64,000 nt of DNA from a virus: positions 1 through 64,000 of IMG/VR virus record IMGVR_UViG_3300032770_000019. The stretch is one strand, 5' to 3'. The notes under the pieces are model-generated. The model was given only the letters and a program-made list of their open reading frames with translations, did no database searches and was not told where the DNA came from. Shown here one piece after another: positions 2,115-44,452 of this stretch (positions are counted from its first letter, which is position 1; the number at the start of each line of letters is the position of its first letter). Made by a program: the position numbers and the translations under genes.

Positions 2115-3169
2115 AGTCCACTCCTCCACTCATTAAGCGTCTCTATCGAAGTCGATAGATCTTCAAGCTGGTGCTGGTTTAGCTTACCCGTACTTCGGAG
2201 ATTCTTAAGCTCAGCTTCGATTCGATCGAGCTCCGCATTCGAAAAGTCACTAGGCTTAACGAGGTGTGCAAAGCCGGTCGGGTAGTGATTTACACTAGGA
2301 TGCCATGCGAACGAATGGTCAATCGGAATTGGAGTACCGTCCTGCGTTATCAGCCAGTTACCGTTGTTGCGATCACTATTAGCTATTAGCACGTCTAGCA
2401 GTCCGATTCGCTTAGCTTCCGGAGAGTCCTTAGCAGCGCGAATACGCTTATACGCAGCCACTACTCTATCCGCATGAGTAGTAGCGTTGTCGCTAGCTTC
2501 GTACGGTTCACTTTCTATTTCCGATGCCGTTTTACCATCGACGAGCGGCATTACTACTTTCTCGTTAAACTTGCTATATCCGCCACCTTCAGGACCTCGA
2601 TAAACGATCTGCGGCGCACCAGCTCCGATTATATCCGATATTTTAGATGCTAGCTCTTCGTGATTCGCATCACTCGGCGTAAGCGCGGCTTTGTGTACCC
2701 ACTTCGAGCCGTCTTTATACTCAACGATCTTAGTATCAGCTATCGCACCCTCGTGCTTCGGGCTACTTATATCGCGTTCCCCGGTCGATTGCGCCCTTTT
2801 CCAGCGGGCAATAGCTGGTTCGTAATGTCCGCCGGTAGCTTGTTCACCTACTAGGTGATGTCCAGCTTTCCTAGAGGCGATAACGGTAGCACGAATCTTC
2901 CTAACGCGAGGATCGTCTCTCGGGTACTTCGCCTGCATTTCTTGGCGCATAGCTAGCAATTCAGCATGGCTGTGACGTACTATCAAGCTGCCAATTGGTT
3001 CGTGATACCATTCCTCACCGGCTGCGGTACGTACGTATTCAGCTAGGTCGATCTGTGTGCTAAGCTGGAGCGGTTTACGCATCGCTTTTATTAGCTTAAT
3101 CAGCAAGCGTTCTTTTTTCGTCAGTGGAGGCTCAACTGCGTCGGAGGAGCTACTCAGCTTCGTAGTCAT
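2087..3169 (-). CDS. Modular virion-associated protein with HipA/PI-kinase-like domain
   Basis: A 360-residue protein. Residues about 42-110 (LAEYVRTAAGEEW through RKAGHHLVG) are a near-copy of a domain in the protein encoded just upstream. Residues about 180-355 carry a kinase-like core: a GGGYSKFNEK strand, the catalytic loop LIANSDRNNGNWL and a following IPIDHSFAW segment, as in HipA and phosphatidylinositol-kinase-like folds. It lies among head genes next to the MuF-like protein. This suggests an enzyme carried in the capsid and delivered to the host, or one acting on host proteins. The target is unknown. Confidence 0.7.
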   Translation of the reverse strand: MTTKLSSSSDAVEPPLTKKERLLIKLIKAMRKPLQLSTQIDLAEYVRTAAGEEWYHEPIGSLIVRHSHAELLAMRQEMQAKYPRDDPRVRKIRATVIASRKAGHHLVGEQATGGHYEPAIARWKRAQSTGERDISSPKHEGAIADTKIVEYKDGSKWVHKAALTPSDANHEELASKISDIIGAGAPQIVYRGPEGGGYSKFNEKVVMPLVDGKTASEIESEPYEASDNATTHADRVVAAYKRIRAAKDSPEAKRIGLLDVLIANSDRNNGNWLITQDGTPIPIDHSFAWHPSVNHYPTGFAHLVKPSDFSNAELDRIEAELKNLRSTGKLNQHQLEDLSTSIETLNEWRSGLWRILYAFK

Positions 3170-4926
3170 ACCGGTTGCAGCTCCTTATCTTGAATGTGTG
3201 CCTTCACGTATTCGCCAAACACCTTTGCCGCCGGTCGCGGATGCGAACTCATCGAATACTCGGCCCACAATTCAGCAAGCAGCTCGTTTGGAGTAGCCGT
3301 ACCGTACTCCGACACTGCGTGATTGAGTATAGACTTGTTACGCTTTATCCAATCTTGAATAACACCGGTGTTTATCCGATCGTCGAGGCGATCAAGGGAC
3401 TCTTGCGTTTGGCTATTAATCGTATCTGCGATGCTAGGATAATCCTTCAGCTCCGCAGGCGAATACTGAGCTTTCCATTCAGCAAGATCGGTATGATTTA
3501 GCTTAGGCGGTCCACTCGCCAGACCGATTGCACTAGCTAGTCGATTCCATAGGTCCTGATCACGACCGCCTCGCGGCAAGTGGCGATGCACCGAATGCCC
3601 AACCTCATGCGCTAGCGATCCCGCAAGTGCGTCATAGTGAGTATCGATAGGAACGTGAAAATTGTCTTCGGAATACGCTCTTCGGATATTAAGCCTTGGA
3701 TGCAGCTTAATATTGCCTCCGAATTCATTCGTTCCGCCAAGATAGGCACCCGGACGTGCAACCTTAACTTTACCTTCGTACTTCGGAGCTTGTACTGTTA
3801 CGTGAATACCACGAACGACACTCGGTACTAGCTTAGCTTGATGTTCCAACCCAACCCGAATCTTCTTTTGTATCTCAGCGATAGCACCGTACGTCTGGAG
3901 GTATTGCTGAACGCTCGGGTCGTCCTCGTTTACCGAAATGCCCCGGTATTTCGGTGCCGAAGTATACTCACCGGTAGACCTTAGTAGCTCTTTCTGATTC
4001 TCGTCCAGCGCGGTATCGTCGTTCGGATACGCTCGAATAGCTTCACGCGCGGTGTATCGATCGACAGCGTCGTGTACCGCTTTCACCGGAATACTAAGAT
4101 TCATCGCGGTATTCTCGTACGCATGCGCACTTGGCGTACCCGGCGGATCCTTCAGCATATTCTCACGAAGCGTATCCGAAACGTATTTATCCCTCTCGGC
4201 TAGTGTCTTACCGATAGCCCAATCCTTCACCTTAACAGTCGTAGGACGAAGCTTCTCGAGGGTACTAGGTCCGCTTTCTTGTGCACCTGCTAGGTGGTGT
4301 CCCGCCTTTCGGCTGGCTACGACAGCGGCGCGAATCTTCTTTACCCGCTCGTCACTACGCGGATACTTCGCCTGCATAGCAGTACGCATAGCTAGCAACT
4401 CAGAGTGCGAATGCTTAACGATTAGCGAACCGATAGGCTCGTGAAACCACTCCTCACCTGCGACAGTGCGAACGTATTCAGCTAGGTCGAGTACCTGCGA
4501 CCAGAGACCACTGGTTTGTAGCTGCTTCTTGTGGAACGAGTCCCACGGTCCCTTTTTCGTTTTAGCTGTACCGACCCACGCCATTGCCGGCGGATGATCG
4601 TTTAGTGACTTATATGCTACTAGTCGTGTATGACCGTCAATCGCCTTCAGCAACGGCATACCCGGTCGCTTGATCAAGATAACGGGCTTACGCCAACCAG
4701 CGGAGATACGCTTTGCGAACTTTGCTACCTTAGCTTGCTCCTTAGTACGCACCCGTTCGAAGATATTGTCGGTATAGTCAATCTGATCCAGTGGAACAGC
4801 GGACGGCTTCGCCCAAGTTAGATCGCTAAGCCAGTCCAACGCACGTTCGGGGTAGTCAACGCGGAGCTGCTTGGTAATACCTTCCAGCGGAGTATTCGTT
4901 AGCTCAATCTGTTGGAGGAGTAGCAT
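3166..4926 (-). CDS. Modular head-region protein: ParB-like domain, shared domain, zinc metallopeptidase
   Basis: A 586-residue protein with three parts. Residues about 45-115 resemble a ParB/sulfiredoxin-type domain (KPVILIKRPG, then KAIDGHTRLVAY). Residues about 148-225 match the N-terminal domain of the kinase-like neighbour almost residue for residue. The C-terminal third holds the zincin motif HEVGH near residue 437 and a second acidic helix NELLAELWAEY near 550, typical of a zinc peptidase. The start has a strong GGAGGAGG site. The architecture resembles toxin-like C-terminal modules attached to head proteins of other phages; delivery with the DNA is inference. Confidence 0.72.
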   Translation of the reverse strand: MLLLQQIELTNTPLEGITKQLRVDYPERALDWLSDLTWAKPSAVPLDQIDYTDNIFERVRTKEQAKVAKFAKRISAGWRKPVILIKRPGMPLLKAIDGHTRLVAYKSLNDHPPAMAWVGTAKTKKGPWDSFHKKQLQTSGLWSQVLDLAEYVRTVAGEEWFHEPIGSLIVKHSHSELLAMRTAMQAKYPRSDERVKKIRAAVVASRKAGHHLAGAQESGPSTLEKLRPTTVKVKDWAIGKTLAERDKYVSDTLRENMLKDPPGTPSAHAYENTAMNLSIPVKAVHDAVDRYTAREAIRAYPNDDTALDENQKELLRSTGEYTSAPKYRGISVNEDDPSVQQYLQTYGAIAEIQKKIRVGLEHQAKLVPSVVRGIHVTVQAPKYEGKVKVARPGAYLGGTNEFGGNIKLHPRLNIRRAYSEDNFHVPIDTHYDALAGSLAHEVGHSVHRHLPRGGRDQDLWNRLASAIGLASGPPKLNHTDLAEWKAQYSPAELKDYPSIADTINSQTQESLDRLDDRINTGVIQDWIKRNKSILNHAVSEYGTATPNELLAELWAEYSMSSHPRPAAKVFGEYVKAHIQDKELQPV

Positions 4927-5931: not shown

Positions 5932-7414
5932 TACCAATCTTCGTCATCCCCGATGCTAGTTGACTTGCAGCTTGCGTTGCACCTGCAATCGTAGCTGCTC
6001 CCTGACCTTGCGGTGACTGATCAGCTGCTTTTGCCCTAGCAATCGCAGCCTGCGAAGTAAGCAACGCGTTCACCTTGTCCAGCGGGAGGTCGAATATCTC
6101 GGCCGCCTTCTCGGCAAGGAGTAGTACGTACTCATGCGGAACGCTTAGTGCCGGTGCGACTGCCATTGCCGTTAGCGCACTGGTAACAGCCTGCGCATTC
6201 GCTTCACTAAGGGGTGCAGCAGTAAGCCGAGGAATCTTCGCATTCGATCCCCACTTGTTTAGTACGCAGATCGGCATGATCACTTGCCGGGTAAACTCGT
6301 TACAGATCTCCGTAGTGAACGCTTGACGGGACTTGAGGAAGAAGTCACTTGCCGACTCGGCAAGGGCATATGAACCACGCCCCAGCGAGGCTTGCGTACC
6401 TAGCGTCAAGAACCCGGCAAGACAGCTATTACTCTGGTACGAGGAAAGGTACTGAATCGCCTGCTGGAATTGTTCGGCACCTTTCCCGCTGGACTCGATT
6501 ACCTCGAACAGCTTCTGTCCCGGTGGCGGTCTAAGAAAGCCTCCTACTGCGCTGGCCTTCATCGTGCTAATAGCTTCGGCAGCATCGTCAGCTTGAGGCT
6601 GGTCGCTACCGTAAACTGCTAGCTTCGGAAGTGATTGAGTCTCTAGGAACTGCAGCCAGAGAAACAGTACCTTCTGCTTTTGCTTGTACGCCCAGTACGC
6701 AACGTCCATATCGCTATAACCGGTCAACGGTGCACGATCAACTCCGTGTAGCAATACGAAGGCCCGAATCCTAGGGATATCCAAGTACCCGGTGAAGTTC
6801 TTGCCACCGATACCCGTTTCCTGGCTACTCCGCTGGGCCTTAGACGGTGACGTTGCGTACCACCAGGCTCGCTGTCTGAAACCGTCAAAGCGTGCCGTAT
6901 GTTCATCGCGTCGGATATCGCACGTAGAAGGCGGGCGCCACTGCAGGCTATCCATCATTACGGTATCATCGTCCTGCAGCGCGTAGTGCTTTTCGAAGAA
7001 CGCCTTCTTGTAAACGCAAGCTTGTACCATCTGCCCGATAATGACGTCCATACCGGGGTTAAAACCTCCGGCCTCCGGTGGCGACATCAGCTGCTGTTCG
7101 CACAGATCCAACTCACCGGTATCTCCCTTTGCACCGGTAAGGGAGTATGCGGTCTGTCTAGGTAGCAACGTAATTGCCTGCTCGACCATTCGGGCGTCTC
7201 CGTCACGGCTAAGCATTAGGTCCATATCGCGAGCTTTCCACTCGCCTACTTCGAAGACATCACCTTGACCGAACGAAGCAAACAAGCGAGTATAAGCGTC
7301 GAACTCGGTACCTATCTCAGCACCGAGAATCTGCTTCTTCTGCTTCGGTGTAAGCAGTGCTAGCTTGTTAAGCGGCTTAGCCCCGCCCTGGTTATAGTCG
7401 TCAGCTATCGCCAT
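5903..7414 (-). CDS. Portal protein (DUF935/Mu gp29-like)
   Basis: A 503-residue protein. Length, position between TerL and MuF and several segments fit portal proteins of the Mu gp29 type: an N-terminal helical region with FDAYTRLFASFG, a central FLQFLETQSLPKLAVYG-like stretch, and the late motif GRGSYALAESASDFF followed by FTTEICNEFTRQVI. The portal forms the dodecameric ring through which DNA enters and leaves the head. It starts four bases after the TerL stop codon. Confidence 0.85.
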   Translation of the reverse strand: MAIADDYNQGGAKPLNKLALLTPKQKKQILGAEIGTEFDAYTRLFASFGQGDVFEVGEWKARDMDLMLSRDGDARMVEQAITLLPRQTAYSLTGAKGDTGELDLCEQQLMSPPEAGGFNPGMDVIIGQMVQACVYKKAFFEKHYALQDDDTVMMDSLQWRPPSTCDIRRDEHTARFDGFRQRAWWYATSPSKAQRSSQETGIGGKNFTGYLDIPRIRAFVLLHGVDRAPLTGYSDMDVAYWAYKQKQKVLFLWLQFLETQSLPKLAVYGSDQPQADDAAEAISTMKASAVGGFLRPPPGQKLFEVIESSGKGAEQFQQAIQYLSSYQSNSCLAGFLTLGTQASLGRGSYALAESASDFFLKSRQAFTTEICNEFTRQVIMPICVLNKWGSNAKIPRLTAAPLSEANAQAVTSALTAMAVAPALSVPHEYVLLLAEKAAEIFDLPLDKVNALLTSQAAIARAKAADQSPQGQGAATIAGATQAASQLASGMTKIGNGRPPAATV

Positions 7415-33123: not shown

Positions 33124-33789
33124 GTGGTTGGACCCATGATGACCCTGCCCCACCCAAAACTGAAAGGTACTACATTGACAGAGTTCGGCAAGGAATTTCG
33201 CCGTACTACATTGACAGAGTTCGGCAAGGAATTTCGCCAGAGAATGCACGACGAGCAGGACGTTGACCAGCGGGCATTCCGTGATCTCGACATACCGGTG
33301 TTTCGAACGGTACCGTATTCGGTTCCGCTGGGCAGGCGTTACGTATACGATAATCGCACACCGCAGATTAAGATGTCGGACTACAACTACGTGCCGGTGC
33401 TAAAGCAGCTAACGCAAGATAGCATACTCATCGAGTGGGACATTGCATATACGAAGGAAGCCCTAGAGACCTTTATCGAGTACTGCAAAGACCAGCCGCA
33501 AATCGTACACGTTGCACCGTATAAGCTTTACCCGATAAGCACTGCACTTGAAAAGCCGGTATGGGTACATCGTACCTATGAGCCAATGTGGTGGGTCAAT
33601 CGCTACGACCCGTACTGTCAGCTATTCGGTTTCGGCTTTGTCTACCTCCCGCTGGATGCCGTTCACGCTTTCCTCGAAACTAAGCCTGAAAAGGCTGACG
33701 ATGCACGATTCTCGAAATGGTACTGGGAAACGTACAAGACAGCAACACCGATACACTGGAACGTCGAAATCATTCACTTGCATTGGTAG
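33124..33789 (+). CDS. Hypothetical protein with a tandem 12-residue repeat
   Basis: A 221-residue protein. The N-terminus holds two perfect copies of TTLTEFGKEFR with one extra residue. The folded part (about 50-221) has APYKLYPIST, KPVWVHRTYEPMWW and FGFGFVYLPLDA, and a final HWNVEIIHLHW, a pattern I have met in phage proteins of unknown function that look like glycosyltransferase relatives. The call is tentative. GTG at 33124 or the TTG inside the repeat could be used. Confidence 0.6.
   Translation: MVGPMMTLPHPKLKGTTLTEFGKEFRRTTLTEFGKEFRQRMHDEQDVDQRAFRDLDIPVFRTVPYSVPLGRRYVYDNRTPQIKMSDYNYVPVLKQLTQDSILIEWDIAYTKEALETFIEYCKDQPQIVHVAPYKLYPISTALEKPVWVHRTYEPMWWVNRYDPYCQLFGFGFVYLPLDAVHAFLETKPEKADDARFSKWYWETYKTATPIHWNVEIIHLHW
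33167..33238 (+). repeat. Perfect 36-base tandem duplication
   Basis: Two identical units of 36 bases, 33167-33202 and 33203-33238, each containing ACATTGACAGAG and AAGGAATTTCG. They are in frame and look recent, as there is no difference between them. Confidence 0.9.
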
Positions 33790-36822: not shown

Positions 36823-37215
36823 TTGCTAACACGTTTTGTTATCGGAGTAGATCCCGGTGGAGTATACACCGGTATAGCAGTATACAACGTAGAAGATCGA
36901 AGGTTCATTATCCACGGAGAATATGTCGAGCCGGACTCGGTGTGGAGTATCATTTGTCGATATCCGCGTTCGCAAACGCGGGTACTCGTAGAGGACTTTC
37001 GCGGATCGGGAAGGCTTACTAAATATCGTAAGCGCACCATAGCAGTTCTCGGTTTTATCTACTGGAGCTGTAAGTACAACGGAATAGCAGTTGCGATGGT
37101 TATGCCGGATGCTCGATTGTCGAACGTTAGCAACGTACCGGCTGACATTCGAGGTAAGGACGAAATTGCGGCAGCAGCTCACGTACTTAGTTACCTAGAG
37201 AGGAACAATGTATAG
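36823..37215 (+). CDS. RuvC-like Holliday junction resolvase
   Basis: A 130-residue protein. VIGVDPGGVYTGIAVY carries the first Asp, VLVEDFRGSG the Glu, and GKDEIAAAAHVLSYL the last acidic residues of the RuvC/RNase H fold. Phage members resolve branched DNA before packaging. The start is TTG with GGGGAGAG upstream. Confidence 0.8.
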   Translation: MLTRFVIGVDPGGVYTGIAVYNVEDRRFIIHGEYVEPDSVWSIICRYPRSQTRVLVEDFRGSGRLTKYRKRTIAVLGFIYWSCKYNGIAVAMVMPDARLSNVSNVPADIRGKDEIAAAAHVLSYLERNNV

Positions 37216-37627
37216 CATCAGCAAGGAGTTTGCGTTTAGCGCGGCTCATCGCTTGGATAAGCTACCAGCGGATCATCCGTGTTCACGCATTCACGGACAT
37301 AACTACGTCGTAACGGTAGTGCTAGCCCAAGCACGTGTAATGCCGCTGGAAGGTTGGATTCGTGACTTCGGTGACCTTGACAAGTTCAAGGACCATATCG
37401 ATACGTACTTCGACCACCGCTGGCTAGGACACGGTACGCTACTCGACGGAGATCCGGTTACTTCCGGAGATGGAACGTACACTACGCCAGCGATAGGCTT
37501 CAATCCGACAGCCGAGAACCTGGCCAAGCACTTCTATGACATAGCAAGAGATACCTATCCGGAAACGTGGAAGGTAGGCGTAAGCGAAACGCCTAAGACG
37601 ATTGCGTGGTATAGCAATGGCGCGTGA
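37208..37627 (+). CDS. queD: QueD, 6-carboxytetrahydropterin synthase
   Basis: A 139-residue enzyme. FSAAHRLDK (zinc His), CSRIHGHNY (catalytic Cys and two zinc His), then IRDFGDLDKFKDHID and PTAENLAKHFY are the QueD/PTPS motifs. It converts dihydroneopterin triphosphate to CPH4 in the preQ0 pathway. It overlaps both neighbours. Confidence 0.93.
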   Translation: MYSISKEFAFSAAHRLDKLPADHPCSRIHGHNYVVTVVLAQARVMPLEGWIRDFGDLDKFKDHIDTYFDHRWLGHGTLLDGDPVTSGDGTYTTPAIGFNPTAENLAKHFYDIARDTYPETWKVGVSETPKTIAWYSNGA

Positions 37628-38378
37628 CTGGCTACTAGTTAGTGAGACGTTCTATACCCTACAAGGCGAAGGTCCGTCCAGCGGTACGCCTGCGTTCTTC
37701 GTTCGGCTAGGGTCGTGCGATCTATCGTGTAAGTGGTGCGATACTCCGTACACGTGGGCATTCGGCGACAAGGCCGAGCTGCACGAAAGCGGTAAGCGTT
37801 ACACGCCACTTGAAGAGCTCGGTCGGGTACAGATCCTCGATGCTGTTAGCGAGATTCGTACACGTAAGCCTCCGCTGGTCGTTATTACCGGTGGCGAGCC
37901 GTTGCTGCAACTCGAATCGGTTGCGGTACTCGTCAGCGCGTGTAACGAAGAACCGAACGGTCCGCGCTTCGAAATCGAGACGGCAGGTACGCACGCACCG
38001 TACGAGCTCGGAGTATTCGAAAACGTAAGCTTCAACGTATCGCCTAAGCTACGTTCCAGCGGTAACTCGGTCGAAAAGGCCTATAAGCCGGACGTGCTTG
38101 AAGCCTACTGCGGCCTTAAGAATCGAGTCCGCTGGAAGTTCGTACCTGAAACGCGTTTCGGTAGCTCCGCCGAGCTCGTTAGGGATATAGGCGAAATCGA
38201 AACTATCGTAGAAACGCACCGCATCGCACCTGGGGACGTATGGCTAATGCCGTGCGCCACGACCATCGAAGAGCTTGATCGAGGGCTGAAACTCCTTGCA
38301 CCTGTAGTACTGGCACGCCACTGGAATCTCACCGATCGTACACATATCCGTATTTGGGGTAACTCGCGTGGACACTGA
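37617..38378 (+). CDS. queE: QueE, 7-carboxy-7-deazaguanine synthase
   Basis: A 253-residue radical SAM enzyme. FYTLQGEGPSSGTPAFFVRL leads to CDLSCKWCDTPY, the radical SAM CxxxCxxC, then VITGGEPLLQ and FEIETAGTH. It converts CPH4 to CDG. The ATG at 37617 overlaps queD by 11 bases. Confidence 0.93.
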   Translation: MARDWLLVSETFYTLQGEGPSSGTPAFFVRLGSCDLSCKWCDTPYTWAFGDKAELHESGKRYTPLEELGRVQILDAVSEIRTRKPPLVVITGGEPLLQLESVAVLVSACNEEPNGPRFEIETAGTHAPYELGVFENVSFNVSPKLRSSGNSVEKAYKPDVLEAYCGLKNRVRWKFVPETRFGSSAELVRDIGEIETIVETHRIAPGDVWLMPCATTIEELDRGLKLLAPVVLARHWNLTDRTHIRIWGNSRGH

Positions 38379-38928
38379 TAAGCTAGAAAAGGCCGTACAG
38401 TCCATTCTAAAAGAGCTCGGTTACAAGCCCGATGAGCACATGAAACGGACGCCTGCTCGCGTAGCTGAATGGCTGATGGACTTCGAAGCAGTCGATCTAA
38501 ATGGCGCCGGTCGCATACTCGAAGTGGTATTTCCCGAGAACGTCCCCGGCTCGCTAGTTATCGTTGGACCGGTAGAGTATCGCTCACTATGTGCGCACCA
38601 TCTCTTGCCGGTAAACGGTAAAGCGTGGGTTGGTTACCTTCCGGACGACGGTATCTGCGGCCTATCCAAGCTGGCGCGCTTGGTCGAATACTTCGCGACA
38701 AGGCTTACCGTTCAGGAACGCGTAACGAATCAGATCGCCGATGCGATTGAAGAGTTCCTTAAGCCGAAAGGTTGCATGGTCGTTGTTAGTGCTACGCATA
38801 TGTGCATGAGCTTCCGAGGAGTTCGTGACGGAGATGCGTCCACCGTTACCAGCGCAGTACGTGGCGTTCACGAGACAAGTGACAACGCACGAAGCGAATT
38901 TCTTTCGCTAATGAAAGGATACCGATGA
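38368..38928 (+). CDS. folE: FolE, GTP cyclohydrolase I
   Basis: A 186-residue enzyme. RTPARVAEWL, then CAHHLLPV and SATHMCMSFRG with the zinc Cys/His residues, and GLSKLARLVEYFA identify type IA GTP cyclohydrolase I. It makes dihydroneopterin triphosphate from GTP, the first step of 7-deazaguanine synthesis. GTG start. Confidence 0.93.
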   Translation: MDTDKLEKAVQSILKELGYKPDEHMKRTPARVAEWLMDFEAVDLNGAGRILEVVFPENVPGSLVIVGPVEYRSLCAHHLLPVNGKAWVGYLPDDGICGLSKLARLVEYFATRLTVQERVTNQIADAIEEFLKPKGCMVVVSATHMCMSFRGVRDGDASTVTSAVRGVHETSDNARSEFLSLMKGYR

Positions 38929-39725
38929 AGCTGTCGCACCTGGTTCCAACGTCGATGCTGAGCGAGCTACCGGAACAACAGACAACGCATCTAGCGCTGG
39001 CGAATCTGATAACGGATGACGAAGAGTATCGAGACTTCTACTGTCGGCTAGTAACCAGCGGACATACGGTCATTCTCGATTACCCGGCTCACGAACGTCT
39101 CGATATCGATCTTGAGCAGTGGTTGGGTGCCGTTGAGATTCTACGACCTTCCGCAGTCGTCCTACCGGACAGTATCGACAGCGCGGACGAAACGCTACTA
39201 CAAGCGGGTATAGCAATTCGCATGCTGCTTCGAAAGACGCTTAACCAGACACCGGAGTATATCGGAGTACCGCACGGTAAAACGCAGAAGGAGTACCTCG
39301 CGTGCGCCGAAAAGCTATGGCGATACGGCTGCCGCTGGTTCGGTATCTCTCTCGAACGGCAACTAAGCGATGCGGACGCTCTAAATCTTCGACAGCAGCG
39401 ACTCGAAGGACTACTTACTAATACGTATACGAAAACCTCAAAGTATCACCTCCTCGGTATCTCGGAGACAGCTAGCGAGCTTATCGACCCGTTCTTTCAG
39501 GAGCATTGCGGAACGGCGGATGCTTCGAAATTCGCTGTCTGGTGGCTAACCAGCTGGGATAGTGCCGTTCCGTATCCGAAGGACGTTCCGATAAACCGTC
39601 CGTATCCGGGGCGTAAAGCCCTTGGCGGAAGCGTAGATTACTTCAACTACTGCGGGGTAAGTACCGGACTCCAGTGGTATCTGGAGCGGTGGTCCGTCTT
39701 CGCTGAGAAAGGTGAACCTGAGTGA
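38925..39725 (+). CDS. dpdA: DpdA-like DNA 7-deazaguanine transglycosylase
   Basis: A 266-residue member of the TGT superfamily. SAVVLPDSIDS carries a likely catalytic Asp, IGVPHGKTQKEYLACAEKL and WFGISLERQ follow TGT-type phage proteins, and YHLLGISETAS is a later strand. In phages DpdA exchanges guanine for preQ0 in DNA. It lies between folE and queC, which supports DNA rather than tRNA modification. Confidence 0.82.
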   Translation: MKLSHLVPTSMLSELPEQQTTHLALANLITDDEEYRDFYCRLVTSGHTVILDYPAHERLDIDLEQWLGAVEILRPSAVVLPDSIDSADETLLQAGIAIRMLLRKTLNQTPEYIGVPHGKTQKEYLACAEKLWRYGCRWFGISLERQLSDADALNLRQQRLEGLLTNTYTKTSKYHLLGISETASELIDPFFQEHCGTADASKFAVWWLTSWDSAVPYPKDVPINRPYPGRKALGGSVDYFNYCGVSTGLQWYLERWSVFAEKGEPE

Positions 39726-41032
39726 GTGGTATTTTTGCGAATCTAATTAGGACAGACGATGCCGGTATTCGCCACGACACGTTTATGCAAATTAAGCGTA
39801 GCGGAGATCGCGGTCGCGACGGACTCGGACTAGTTACCATTCGTGACGGTGAAATCGCCGAAGATCGCTCAATTGAAAGAAAAGCTTCAACGCTTCGCGA
39901 GCCCGGCTTTTCGACCAAATTCGACGGTACAGCATCGCAGCTAATCGGCTGCGCGTATAGTGGCGACTATGCTAATTCGTTTAAGAAAGCCGAATCCGTT
40001 CCGCCGTTCGTTAGTTACGATCGCACTTGGGTCGTTTCGCTAGACGGTATCGTAGTCGGCCTTACCGGTCAGCAAGTAGCTGATACGCTTAGTCGTGACG
40101 GGTTCTCCTGCCTTCACGACTTCAAAGGACAGTTCGCGCTACTAGCGTTTCACGTTTCGCAGCCCAACCGTATCTACTTCGCGAATACGTCCAAGCCACT
40201 TTACGGTCTGTATGATTCGCTAGGTCGAGTCGTACGAGTAGCCAGCCAGCGGAAGTACTTCGAAAGCTTTTACCACCCGACGCGTTCACCGCAGCCGTTC
40301 GAGATGGGTCCGAATCTCTACGGAATGCTAAGCAGCGAGGGTATACTGTCTACGTACCCGCTACCCGTAGAGAAAGGTAGCGGCTCGCTGATACTGTGCG
40401 GAGGTGGCCTGGATAGCCTAGTAGCTTCGTACGACGTAGCCGCACGTTTTCCCGATGAGCCACTAGCGTTGCTATTCTTCGACTACGGTCAGCGAGCAGC
40501 CGTACCCGAGTGGAAAGCTACGTGCGAAATTGCACACGCACTCGGTAAGCTACCCGGAGCAGTACAGCATCCGCTGCCATCCTTTAGCCATACCACACTG
40601 GTCGAAGGTAATATCGAAACGACTCCGGTAGCGGGTGTGCCGTCCGAATGGTGTCCCGCACGGAATACGGTACTGATGGCGCACGCACTTAGCTATGCCG
40701 AGGCAGGTAACTACGCTCGTATCGTAACCGGTATTAACGCTACAGCGGCCGATGCGTATGCAGACAACGAGAAGGAATGGCTTAACAAGTGTCGCTCGCT
40801 GGTTCCGTATGCCGTAAACGATCGTAGTATCGATCTTGTTGCGCCTCTCGAGAATCTAACTAAGACGGAGATCGTTAAGCTCGGGAAGGTGCTAAAGGTA
40901 CCGTGGACCAGCTGGAGTTGCTACGGGGGCGGAGAAAAACACTGCGGGGAATGCTCAAGCTGTCGAGCTCGTAGAGCGGCGTTCCGAGGCGCAGGCGTAA
41001 AAGACTCTACCGAATACGAGTACACGCCATGA
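39722..41032 (+). CDS. queC: Amidotransferase-QueC fusion
   Basis: A 436-residue protein. Residues 1-215 resemble a class II glutamine amidotransferase (MSGIFANL, RSGDRGRDGLGL), but the nucleophilic Cys after Met is Ser. Residues about 220-436 are QueC: LILCGGGLDSLVAS, EWCPARNTVLMAHAL and CYGGGEKHCGECSSC. QueC makes preQ0 from CDG. GAT-QueC fusions are linked to conversion of preQ0 to archaeosine; the Ser makes that step uncertain here. The GTG overlaps the DpdA stop. Confidence 0.88.
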   Translation: MSGIFANLIRTDDAGIRHDTFMQIKRSGDRGRDGLGLVTIRDGEIAEDRSIERKASTLREPGFSTKFDGTASQLIGCAYSGDYANSFKKAESVPPFVSYDRTWVVSLDGIVVGLTGQQVADTLSRDGFSCLHDFKGQFALLAFHVSQPNRIYFANTSKPLYGLYDSLGRVVRVASQRKYFESFYHPTRSPQPFEMGPNLYGMLSSEGILSTYPLPVEKGSGSLILCGGGLDSLVASYDVAARFPDEPLALLFFDYGQRAAVPEWKATCEIAHALGKLPGAVQHPLPSFSHTTLVEGNIETTPVAGVPSEWCPARNTVLMAHALSYAEAGNYARIVTGINATAADAYADNEKEWLNKCRSLVPYAVNDRSIDLVAPLENLTKTEIVKLGKVLKVPWTSWSCYGGGEKHCGECSSCRARRAAFRGAGVKDSTEYEYTP

Positions 41033-41223
41033 TATGTCGCGTATGCTGTCTTTCAGACGACCATAGCAGCTGTCCCGGCGGTACCTGGTGCGATTGTCAG
41101 CACATGCCGAGATCAGCTAAGCTCGTCTTGCCGGTAAGCAAGAAATCGGTTACAATGGTAGTAACCGGCACAATTAGTAGTGAGAACGCAGGGATTGCCC
41201 TAGGTGAAACGAACACTAAGTAA
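41029..41223 (+). CDS. Small Cys-rich protein
   Basis: A 64-residue protein. CRVCCLSDDHSSC and WCDCQH are the metal-binding-like part, followed by a beta-rich tail (TMVVTGTISSEN). It overlaps the polymerase start by 20 bases. No family is recognised. Confidence 0.6.
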   Translation: MICRVCCLSDDHSSCPGGTWCDCQHMPRSAKLVLPVSKKSVTMVVTGTISSENAGIALGETNTK

Positions 41224-43735
41224 CGGTTGTCACGGCTGTCCTTGGATACCGGGTAAGGGTCGAGGATGGTGCGGCGGTAGCGGACCAGCGAAGGCACGCT
41301 TGGTTATCGTTGGCGAGGGTCCCGGAGATACCGAAACCGTTACCGGTCGTCCTTTTAGCGGTAAGTCAGGCGAGCTGCTGAACGCAACGCTAAAAAAATG
41401 CGACATTAAGCGAAGTGAGTGCTATGGCACGAATTCGGTGCAGTGCAATATCAAGCCGAACTCCGCAGAGCTGGCTAGTTGCCGTCCTAGGCTTATCGAA
41501 GAAATAAAGGCCAGGGGTCCTTCGCTGGTACTTGTCCTAGGAAAGATTGCGTGGCAGCAGCTCAGTGGCTCACGAGAAGCCCTCACAAACGTAATCGGAA
41601 CGCTATGGTGGCAGGAAGATATCGGTGTATGGCTCATACCGACCTGGCACCCAGCGGCCATCCTTCGGGGAGGTGGCGGTGACACGCGCTTTCCGGACTT
41701 CGCTAATGCGATATACCGTGCATCGCGCTTCCTCTCGGGTGCTGAGGACCTACCTGATCCGAGTCCGAAGGTACCGTTCCCTTGGACGTTTTTCCGTACT
41801 CCCGAAGGTGCAATAAAGGCATTCAAGTACTTTGAGCGACAGGCTGAACTTTACGGCAGACTGACAATTGCCGCGGACACTGAATCCCAATCACCGGGCC
41901 GCTGGCCACACCCGGAAAGCGACCGCTGGCTGATGCATCAGATGTACGACGGAAAGAGGGCCTGTGCAATCGATATCACCGCACAAAACGAACGCAGCAC
42001 AGCCTATCTACGTCGCCTACTTGCCAATAAGCGTATCATTTGGACGATGCATAACGGTGCAGCTTACGACCTCCGAGTCTTTCGTCATAATCTCGGAATG
42101 TGTCCTCCGGATGATAACGTACGGGATACTATGGTCCTGGGTATTGGCTTGTCGGAACGCAAACAGGCAATCGGTCTCGAGCCACTATCGCGAGTTTACC
42201 TCAACGCACCTGCGTACAAAAAGGCCCTCAAGAACAGTGGCTACCGACATGCTAAAGGCCCGCAAAACGAGCAGCAGTGGCGATTCCTAGCGCGCTATGG
42301 CGTTGAAGACGTCTATCTCGGTTGGCACCTCAATCGGGTACTTCCCGCCATAGTTCGTGAAGAAGGCACGATGGGCCTGTGCCGTAACGTTCTTATGCCG
42401 CTGGCATTGACGTGCGGTCGAATAGCCGGTCGTGGCTTCGAAATAGATATGAAACAATTGCATAAGCTAAACGAGCTTTGGGGAGGAAAGGCAGCTGAGC
42501 TCACGGGGGAACTGCAAGAGCTGGCTACTGAAGCTGGCTGGCCTCTCTACCCGGAGATCGCTAAGGCGAAAGACGGGTTGTTTAATCCTCGTAGTCACCT
42601 ACAGTTGGCTCATTTGGCGTACGATGTACTTGAGCTCAGCCCGACCGATGGTACAACTAATAGAAAGTACACTTCTAAGTGGGACGGCGGTCGTAGTCTT
42701 CGTAGCGTGGATCAAGATTTCTTGATGGGACACTCCGACACTAAGATGTGTCAGTTGATGTCGCGATTGCGTACCTACGATAAGCTGCACCGAACATACG
42801 TTAAGACCATTGAGCGAGAGGTAGCTCTCGATCCTAACGGCCTAATTCATCCCGACTTTAAGTATGGTGATACGGTAACGGGTAGGCTGGTAGTTAGACC
42901 GCTACTTCAAGTGCTACCGCATTACGGAGCTCATAGCCAGCTGGCAGATGAGGACTTCGCACAAGAAACACGAAGAATGTTCCCGGCGAGAAAGGGTTAC
43001 GTAATCGTTTCAGCTGACTTTAAGCAGCTGGAAATGAGGATAGCATGGGCACTCAGTGGCGACACGAAACTCGGAATTGCGCTGTCCAGCGGAGACGTTC
43101 ACGCGAACACCGCTTCGTATATGTTCCGCAAGCCAAAAGAAACGGTTACCAGCGGAGACCGTCATGCTGCGAAGCGGGTCTCCTTCGGTGTTGCCTACAA
43201 CCGCAGTGCTTTTACGCTTGCGCGTGGTCCGCTGCTGGAGGTCTTGGGTGGCGTTGACGTATCCGAACATGTCCGTCAGGCGAAGGCACAGCAGTATATT
43301 GACGCGTTCTGGGACGGGTATCCGGACTACTATGCGTACCACCAGTGGTGCAAGGAGGAAGCACTCCGTACCCGTGAACTGACCACGCCATTCGGTAGAA
43401 AGCGCCGCTGGGGACTAATTACGGATGAAACTCGGCGAGAGATTGAGAATCAGGCGGTAAACTTCCCGATTCAGAGCACCGCTGGAGATATGTGCTCGAT
43501 GTCCCTTGTACGGTGTGAAAAGGAGCTCGGAAGGCGCAAGCTCGGCTTTCCGTTGTACACAGTTCACGATGAAGTAGTATTCGAGCTTAAGATCGCAACG
43601 CTACCGCAGGCGCTTCGAGTAATCACCGACGTAATGACCGACCCGCCATTCGATGCCGGTGATGCGCAGTTCCCGATCGACATAAAGGTAGGCCCGAACC
43701 TAGGCGACCTAGAGCCGTGGACCGGAGTGCTATGA
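41204..43735 (+). CDS. DNA polymerase I with N-terminal family-4 uracil-DNA glycosylase-like domain
   Basis: An 843-residue protein. Residues 1-190 match family-4 UDG: CHGC, VGEGPGDTETVTGRPF, SVQCNIKPNSAELASC (the four iron-sulphur Cys) and LIPTWHPAAILRG. Residues 215-400 are a 3'-5' exonuclease (AADTES, MHNGAAYDLRVF, GVEDVYLGW). Residues 480-843 are the polymerase: motif A VSADFKQLEMRIAW (about 605), KRVSFGVAYNR, motif C YTVHDEVVFEL (about 785). There is no 5' nuclease. Start is GTG. Confidence 0.92.
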   Translation: MKRTLSNGCHGCPWIPGKGRGWCGGSGPAKARLVIVGEGPGDTETVTGRPFSGKSGELLNATLKKCDIKRSECYGTNSVQCNIKPNSAELASCRPRLIEEIKARGPSLVLVLGKIAWQQLSGSREALTNVIGTLWWQEDIGVWLIPTWHPAAILRGGGGDTRFPDFANAIYRASRFLSGAEDLPDPSPKVPFPWTFFRTPEGAIKAFKYFERQAELYGRLTIAADTESQSPGRWPHPESDRWLMHQMYDGKRACAIDITAQNERSTAYLRRLLANKRIIWTMHNGAAYDLRVFRHNLGMCPPDDNVRDTMVLGIGLSERKQAIGLEPLSRVYLNAPAYKKALKNSGYRHAKGPQNEQQWRFLARYGVEDVYLGWHLNRVLPAIVREEGTMGLCRNVLMPLALTCGRIAGRGFEIDMKQLHKLNELWGGKAAELTGELQELATEAGWPLYPEIAKAKDGLFNPRSHLQLAHLAYDVLELSPTDGTTNRKYTSKWDGGRSLRSVDQDFLMGHSDTKMCQLMSRLRTYDKLHRTYVKTIEREVALDPNGLIHPDFKYGDTVTGRLVVRPLLQVLPHYGAHSQLADEDFAQETRRMFPARKGYVIVSADFKQLEMRIAWALSGDTKLGIALSSGDVHANTASYMFRKPKETVTSGDRHAAKRVSFGVAYNRSAFTLARGPLLEVLGGVDVSEHVRQAKAQQYIDAFWDGYPDYYAYHQWCKEEALRTRELTTPFGRKRRWGLITDETRREIENQAVNFPIQSTAGDMCSMSLVRCEKELGRRKLGFPLYTVHDEVVFELKIATLPQALRVITDVMTDPPFDAGDAQFPIDIKVGPNLGDLEPWTGVL

Positions 43736-43926
43736 TCTATACGACACAGGAAGGCGTATGGCATAATCACCGCAAGTGTCAGTGGGAGTATATGAGTCGG
43801 GCTGGACAGTGCGTAGCGTGGATAACGGATGAGATGCTGTATCGTGCCGTTCCGGAGATGCTGCTACAGCATCATAGCCACGTAATCCGGGCTATTGCGA
43901 GAGAGGCATTTCATGGACTGGTTTGA
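43732..43926 (+). CDS. Small hypothetical protein
   Basis: A 64-residue protein from an ATGA overlap with the polymerase. YTTQEGVWHNHRKCQWEY is His/Trp/Cys-rich; the second half is helical. No family is recognised. Confidence 0.55.
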   Translation: MIYTTQEGVWHNHRKCQWEYMSRAGQCVAWITDEMLYRAVPEMLLQHHSHVIRAIAREAFHGLV

Positions 43927-44452
43927 CGTAATAGCAGACAAGCGAGTGCCGCCAGGTCTTGCTATTCTAGTAAGTGGGGAGAGCGTTGTGGCGATGCAAG
44001 GGTATACTACAATTGAGCAGAGCGGCGAAGAAGTGTGGATACCGGCTCCGCTGGTTGATGCGATCAAGGTGATGGTCGGTACCTTCCAAGCGAAGAGCGC
44101 TGACTACTCGGACACCGATGATCAGTGGGATAGCAACTTTGCGATGACCGCTGAGCAGTTCGATCTTAATCGATACGAAGCATGCGAGTTTAACGTTGTT
44201 CAAAAGCTAGCGCGACTACGTGCCCTTAGGCGTAGAGGAACTGCTCCGGTAAACGAATCGGTAGAAGACACCTATCGTGACATGATGAACTACGCCACCT
44301 ACGCGTACGCACTTTACCTAGAGGAAACTGCGCCAAAACCCGCCAAAGTGGACACGCAGATCGAGCAGTATACCCTGCCCAAAGACCCAGCTCAGGACGC
44401 GGTCTCTCGGGGCGTGGACAGACATGCAGGTCACCAGACACCGACCACCTGA
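43913..44452 (+). CDS. DUF1599/MazG-related protein
   Basis: A 179-residue protein. FQAKSADYSDTDDQWDSNF, FNVVQKLARLRAL and VEDTYRDMMNYATYAYAL match the DUF1599-type nucleotide-modification-associated domain, found next to modified-base and nucleotide genes. The C-terminal 20 residues are encoded by the structured element at 44387. A role in nucleotide pools with the 7-deazaguanine pathway is plausible. Confidence 0.72.
   Translation: MDWFDVIADKRVPPGLAILVSGESVVAMQGYTTIEQSGEEVWIPAPLVDAIKVMVGTFQAKSADYSDTDDQWDSNFAMTAEQFDLNRYEACEFNVVQKLARLRALRRRGTAPVNESVEDTYRDMMNYATYAYALYLEETAPKPAKVDTQIEQYTLPKDPAQDAVSRGVDRHAGHQTPTT

Follow-up and report, generated by a model that had tools for sequence, protein, structure and literature searches.

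Among phages that place 7-deazaguanines in their DNA, two kinds of gene set are relevant here. A set with a stand-alone QueC gives dPreQ0 in Rosebush and CAjan (PMC6884629), whereas a catalytic Gat-QueC in the place of QueC gives dG+, as in phage 9g (PMC6884629) and in Vid5, whose DNA carries this base (PMC8306585). The Gat-QueC of 9g has been suggested to channel preQ0 to DpdA and not to the tRNA pathway (PMC6884629). The locus described here has the gene content of the dG+ phages, but its Gat half has lost the glutaminase site.

The window, the 64,000-nucleotide stretch that we analysed, is part of the 72,494-bp IMG/VR virus record IMGVR_UViG_3300032770_000019, which contains tailed-phage genes (terminase, portal, tape measure and endolysins). 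Five overlapping + strand genes occupy positions 37208-41032, with a RuvC-like ORF on one side and a UDG-PolA fusion on the other; all features of the cluster given below are on the + strand. QueD (6-carboxytetrahydropterin synthase, 37208..37627) is matched by Pfam PTPS (3.1e-27), by the PHROG QueD family and, under its cut-off, by TIGR03367 (2.8e-22), and carries the CxxxHGH zinc/catalytic motif. QueE (7-carboxy-7-deazaguanine synthase, a radical SAM protein, 37620..38378) is matched by the QueE-like PHROG 2076 (4.4e-50) and contains CxxxCxxC; its ATG at 37620 was chosen over a mechanical TTG call at 37602. FolE (GTP cyclohydrolase I, 38368..38928) is recognised by Pfam (8.8e-54) and, over its cut-off, by NF006826. 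A compact DpdA-type DNA guanine transglycosylase of 266 aa (38925..39725) and a Gat-QueC fusion of 436 aa with a GTG start (39722..41032) complete the cluster, the latter with a Pfam QueC match at residues 223-423 (2.3e-40). Thus the initial annotation, which had claimed a complete preQ0 pathway together with a DpdA, is borne out for all five genes by profile or fold matches, each where it had been placed. At the DNA level, no relatives were found among 50,697 phage records.

Some observations on neighbouring genes may be of separate interest. Downstream, at 41204-43735, a UDG-superfamily domain forms the N-terminus of a family A DNA polymerase, a fusion kept in related phages (~60-75% identical), and just 3' of it lies an ORF (43895-44452) with DUF1599, the 'nucleotide modification associated domain 1'. 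DUF1599-like ORFs are likewise found downstream of the polymerase in the related contigs L011, L013 and L016. An ORF at 33124-33789 has an in-frame tandem duplication, TTLTEFGKEFR, near its start.

The transglycosylase has no Pfam match and was identified by its fold. Its AlphaFold model has a pLDDT of 70, with low confidence in the last quarter; the top PDB match is 7ui4, the DNA preQ0 insertase DpdA (E 2e-5), followed by tRNA-guanine transglycosylase structures, so that the earlier DpdA call is right. Asp52 and Asp199 are its candidate catalytic residues. A tblastn search matched a Flavobacterium phage 'DNA guanine transglycosylase' (1e-4), and hhalign gave no significant match between the window protein and the 9g type, from which it is a separate, compact subtype. 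Flavobacterium and Cellulophaga phages have relatives of it, and some viral contigs that carry a stand-alone QueC have more distant ones; the nearest subtype that has a QueC partner (L003, L004) accompanies a stand-alone QueC, the combination known to yield dPreQ0 in Rosebush and CAjan, which speaks for this base here too. However, the subtype of the window protein also occurs in Flavobacterium immuto together with QueF and in phiST, which has no gene annotated as QueC, so the DpdA subtype alone does not fix the inserted base.

The Gat-QueC begins MSGIF, where active members begin MCGI. GTG 39722 is the sole start that retains the first strand of the fold; since an in-frame TGA lies immediately upstream and one has to go some 20 codons downstream to reach another start, this N-terminus is real. 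An upstream start that would supply the Cys is ruled out by the same stop. Nor is Ser2 a sequencing error, because four further IMG/VR contigs carry the same Ser and the accompanying changes. The structure model (pLDDT 90.4, pTM 0.88) has a class-II amidotransferase fold and, after it in the same chain, a QueC domain. For the Gat half (39722..40369) the fold matches include GlmS and asparagine synthetase as well as PurF and beta-lactam synthetase, and the whole model matches the Gat-QueC of Vid5 over its full length (E 2e-37, TMq 0.83). Catalytic Gat-QueCs were present in the alignment behind the model, which therefore shows a compatible fold and not autonomous folding. Structure prediction had been named in the initial annotation as a check on the amidotransferase fold; the fold is present, and that reading holds.

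Loss of the nucleophile, which was the only change noted initially, is real but is the smallest part of the alteration. Ser2 (39725..39727) stands in place of the N-terminal Cys that glutamine-dependent formation of archaeosine calls for: all five members of the clade have Ser, whereas the other 57 distinct full-length Gat-QueCs from IMG/VR all have Cys, as do those cellular Gat-QueCs that have a recognisable N-terminus. Residues Arg73, Asn98 and Asp123 of GlmS (E. coli numbering) have established roles in class-II amidotransferases; in an alignment with a GlmS they correspond to Tyr79, Asp108 and Thr115 of the window protein. The glutamine-binding Arg is thus a Tyr (39956..39958; Tyr 5/5 versus Arg 45/45) and the oxyanion Asn an Asp (40043..40045; Asp 5/5 versus Asn 45/45), with the adjoining Gly109 kept; L013 has an Asp at the position aligned with Thr115, and the loop leading to this second substrate-binding Asp is missing in the clade. 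Compared with the 45 catalytic viral Gat-QueCs, the alterations comprise Cys2, the Arg of RAEPTTE, the Asn of HNGT and the glutamine loop. Twelve Gat positions with a conservation of 90% or more in these 45 proteins (RG.D, P95, G109 and others) are nevertheless kept in the first four clade members. Glutaminase family models find matches in catalytic Gat-QueCs but none in the window Gat-QueC. It had been suggested that the domain might fail to release ammonia; given the absent Cys, release of ammonia from glutamine seems very unlikely.

The four further proteins of this type found in IMG/VR scans (L011, L012, L013, L182) all begin MSG[IL]; L013 probably starts at 278, judging by its overlap with dpdA, and an upstream GTG also exists. 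The clade shares its descent with the other Gat-QueCs, with which it has the RGRDG motif in common: in a tree of QueC domains it groups with L016 (SH-aLRT 96) beside other Gat-QueCs, and a split with SH-aLRT 89 (midpoint root) separates them from stand-alone QueC. Two sister phages (L014-L016 and L183-L187) have the same operon and the same GGGLDS P-loop, but QueC alone and no Gat, and QueC evidently works without Gat in both. In the polymerase tree the L016 and L183 phages pair (89/92) beside L011 (100/100); the root of the phage group is not placed by distant outgroups. With this pairing it is simplest to suppose that Gat was lost once, although the QueC tree is too weak to decide the matter. 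In L016 no remnant of Gat was found in the gap between dpdA and queC; the place of Gat is taken by an unrelated 76-aa ORF (6466-6696) of unknown function.

Two observations were made on other records. In Bacillus phage BSTP8 (L097) the gene at 2992-3663 is annotated as glutamine amidotransferase / QueC and has a QueC domain only. In the 349-kb Vibrio phage V07 (MT135025.1, 281665-282597) the Gat-QueC equals that of the 58-kb siphophage BA3 in score and identity to our query, and the V07 record is possibly a chimeric assembly.

The altered Gat domain is conserved. In the clade, Gat halves are 33-43% identical at a QueC identity of 48-56% (34-44% in a separate pairwise comparison of four of them), and in catalytic pairs with a QueC identity of 48-60% Gat identity averages 32.5%; relative to QueC, Gat of the clade diverges no faster than catalytic Gat. 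This comparison does not favour a simple relaxed decay of the Gat half. Moreover, five new residues at former active-site positions, S2, C77, Y79, P94 and D108, are invariant in all five proteins. Invariance is found at 5 of the 11 fully switched sites, as against 15 of the 163 sites that are variable in catalytic proteins (Fisher p=0.0036, identical under two alignment settings, an optimistic value, given the shared ancestry of the clade sequences). The pattern nevertheless speaks for selection of some kind, and five new invariant residues are more than a mere scaffold needs, which counts against a purely structural role.

The QueC half (7-cyano-7-deazaguanine synthase, 40370..41029) retains its known essential residues. 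In the E. coli enzyme Y35, R99, Y131 and Y189 cannot be dispensed with (PMC13329287), and their equivalents Y255, R314, Y346 and Y401 are retained. The zinc motif Cys400, 408, 411, 414 (40919..40963) is invariant in 49/49 aligned rows. Only the P-loop departs from the canonical SGGxDS: its first Ser is replaced, giving GGGLDS (40400..40417), with GGG in the clade and its Gat-less sisters and SGG in 45/45 others. The change from Ser to Gly could slow QueC or halt it at the amide. As it affects only the first P-loop Ser, and does so across the whole group, synthesis of preQ0 is to be expected, with reduced certainty.

We consider it rather likely that this is a glutaminase-dead Gat-QueC whose QueC half makes preQ0, that DpdA inserts it, that the phage DNA carries dPreQ0, and that Gat is kept as a module. 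FolE, QueD and QueE would supply 7-carboxy-7-deazaguanine, from which the QueC half would form preQ0 using ATP and free ammonia, and the compact DpdA would swap guanines in phage DNA for preQ0. The Gat half would neither bind nor hydrolyse glutamine, so that preQ0 would not be amidinated to archaeosine and dPreQ0 would stay. The domain may be retained for structure, docking or channelling; the channelling suggested for 9g offers, by analogy, a possible reason for keeping it as a docking module. Within the 72-kb record, which is possibly incomplete, models for QueF, TGT and GATase_7 (PF13537) revealed no QueF, no TGT/ArcS-like protein and no second class-II GATase; a weak QueF match falls within the FolE gene and is not real. 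The initial annotation had left preQ0, archaeosine or an unusual product as outcomes. The first is now favoured, and archaeosine has become unlikely with the whole glutamine site lost and no other archaeosine synthase or GATase found in the record.

Other readings have to be weighed against dPreQ0 with a retained module. The fusion architecture and an operon like that of dG+ phages would fit archaeosine still being made, with Ser2 as nucleophile or with free or host-derived ammonia in the stead of glutamine. We regard this as highly improbable: the glutamine-binding Arg, Asp and loop, kept in 45/45 catalytic Gat-QueCs, are lost too, and the same phage group has relatives with QueC only. The P-loop change throughout the clade, together with the presence of this DpdA subtype in a phage without a gene annotated as QueC, is what could speak for a QueC half that stops short of preQ0, leaving the amide (dADG) or the carboxylate (dCDG) in DNA; since the zinc site is retained, as are all four residues on which preQ0 formation by the E. 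coli enzyme depends, such a product is improbable.

The remaining alternatives concern the Gat half itself. That it is a functionless relic heading for deletion is suggested by its lost catalytic residues and by its absence from the L016 and L183 phages, which adjoin L011 in the polymerase tree. However, the frame is open and the length full in five divergent phages, constraint equals that of catalytic Gats, and new residues have become invariant, which makes a relic quite unlikely. The same invariant residues, fixed despite low Gat identity, are the reason why a rebuilt pocket merits attention. Ser2, exposed after removal of Met, could form with Tyr79, Asp108 and Cys77 a new catalytic or ligand site for something other than glutamine, with possibly a different 7-deazaguanine base as the result; the Gat/QueC divergence agrees with this, and Ntn hydrolases with a Ser nucleophile are known. 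On the other hand, two sister phages dispense with the domain, an Asp for the oxyanion Asn disfavours hydrolysis, and the sequences are few (five, related) and suggest no substrate, so that we hold a rebuilt site to be unlikely, if less remote than a relic. Its boldest form, in which the N-terminal Ser, Tyr79 and Asp108 make the former glutaminase pocket a new active site and the phage DNA carries a 7-deazaguanine base formed by an undescribed reaction, is improbable.

The two-domain architecture is also that of the archaeal Gat-QueC archaeosine synthase of Sulfolobales and Thermoproteales, which differs in having the Cys wherever its N-terminus is recognisable and in acting on tRNA (PMC6884629). 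With the dG+ proteins of 9g and Vid5 the window protein shares the fusion, the fold (TMq 0.83 to Vid5), the zinc motif and the partners FolE, QueD, QueE and DpdA. However, it is only about 30% identical to them, is without the Gat Cys, Arg, Asn, Asp and glutamine loop, and has a GGGLDS P-loop and a different, compact DpdA subtype. In fold class it resembles, as an analogy only, beta-lactam and carbapenam synthetases (PDB matches 1mb9, 1jgt and 1q15), in which a Cys-less Ntn amidotransferase domain is likewise joined to an ATP-pyrophosphatase domain; the amidotransferase domains of these enzymes have lost the Cys, but substrates and lineage are different. The expected chemistry, with preQ0 made and inserted but not amidinated, is that of Rosebush and CAjan, whose stand-alone QueC has no Gat domain, whereas here a dead Gat is kept in five phages. 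Phages with the same kind of operon thus form a natural series with a catalytic Gat, a dead but conserved Gat, or no Gat, and to read the annotation 'Gat-QueC' as 'dG+ phage' would be wrong for some of them.
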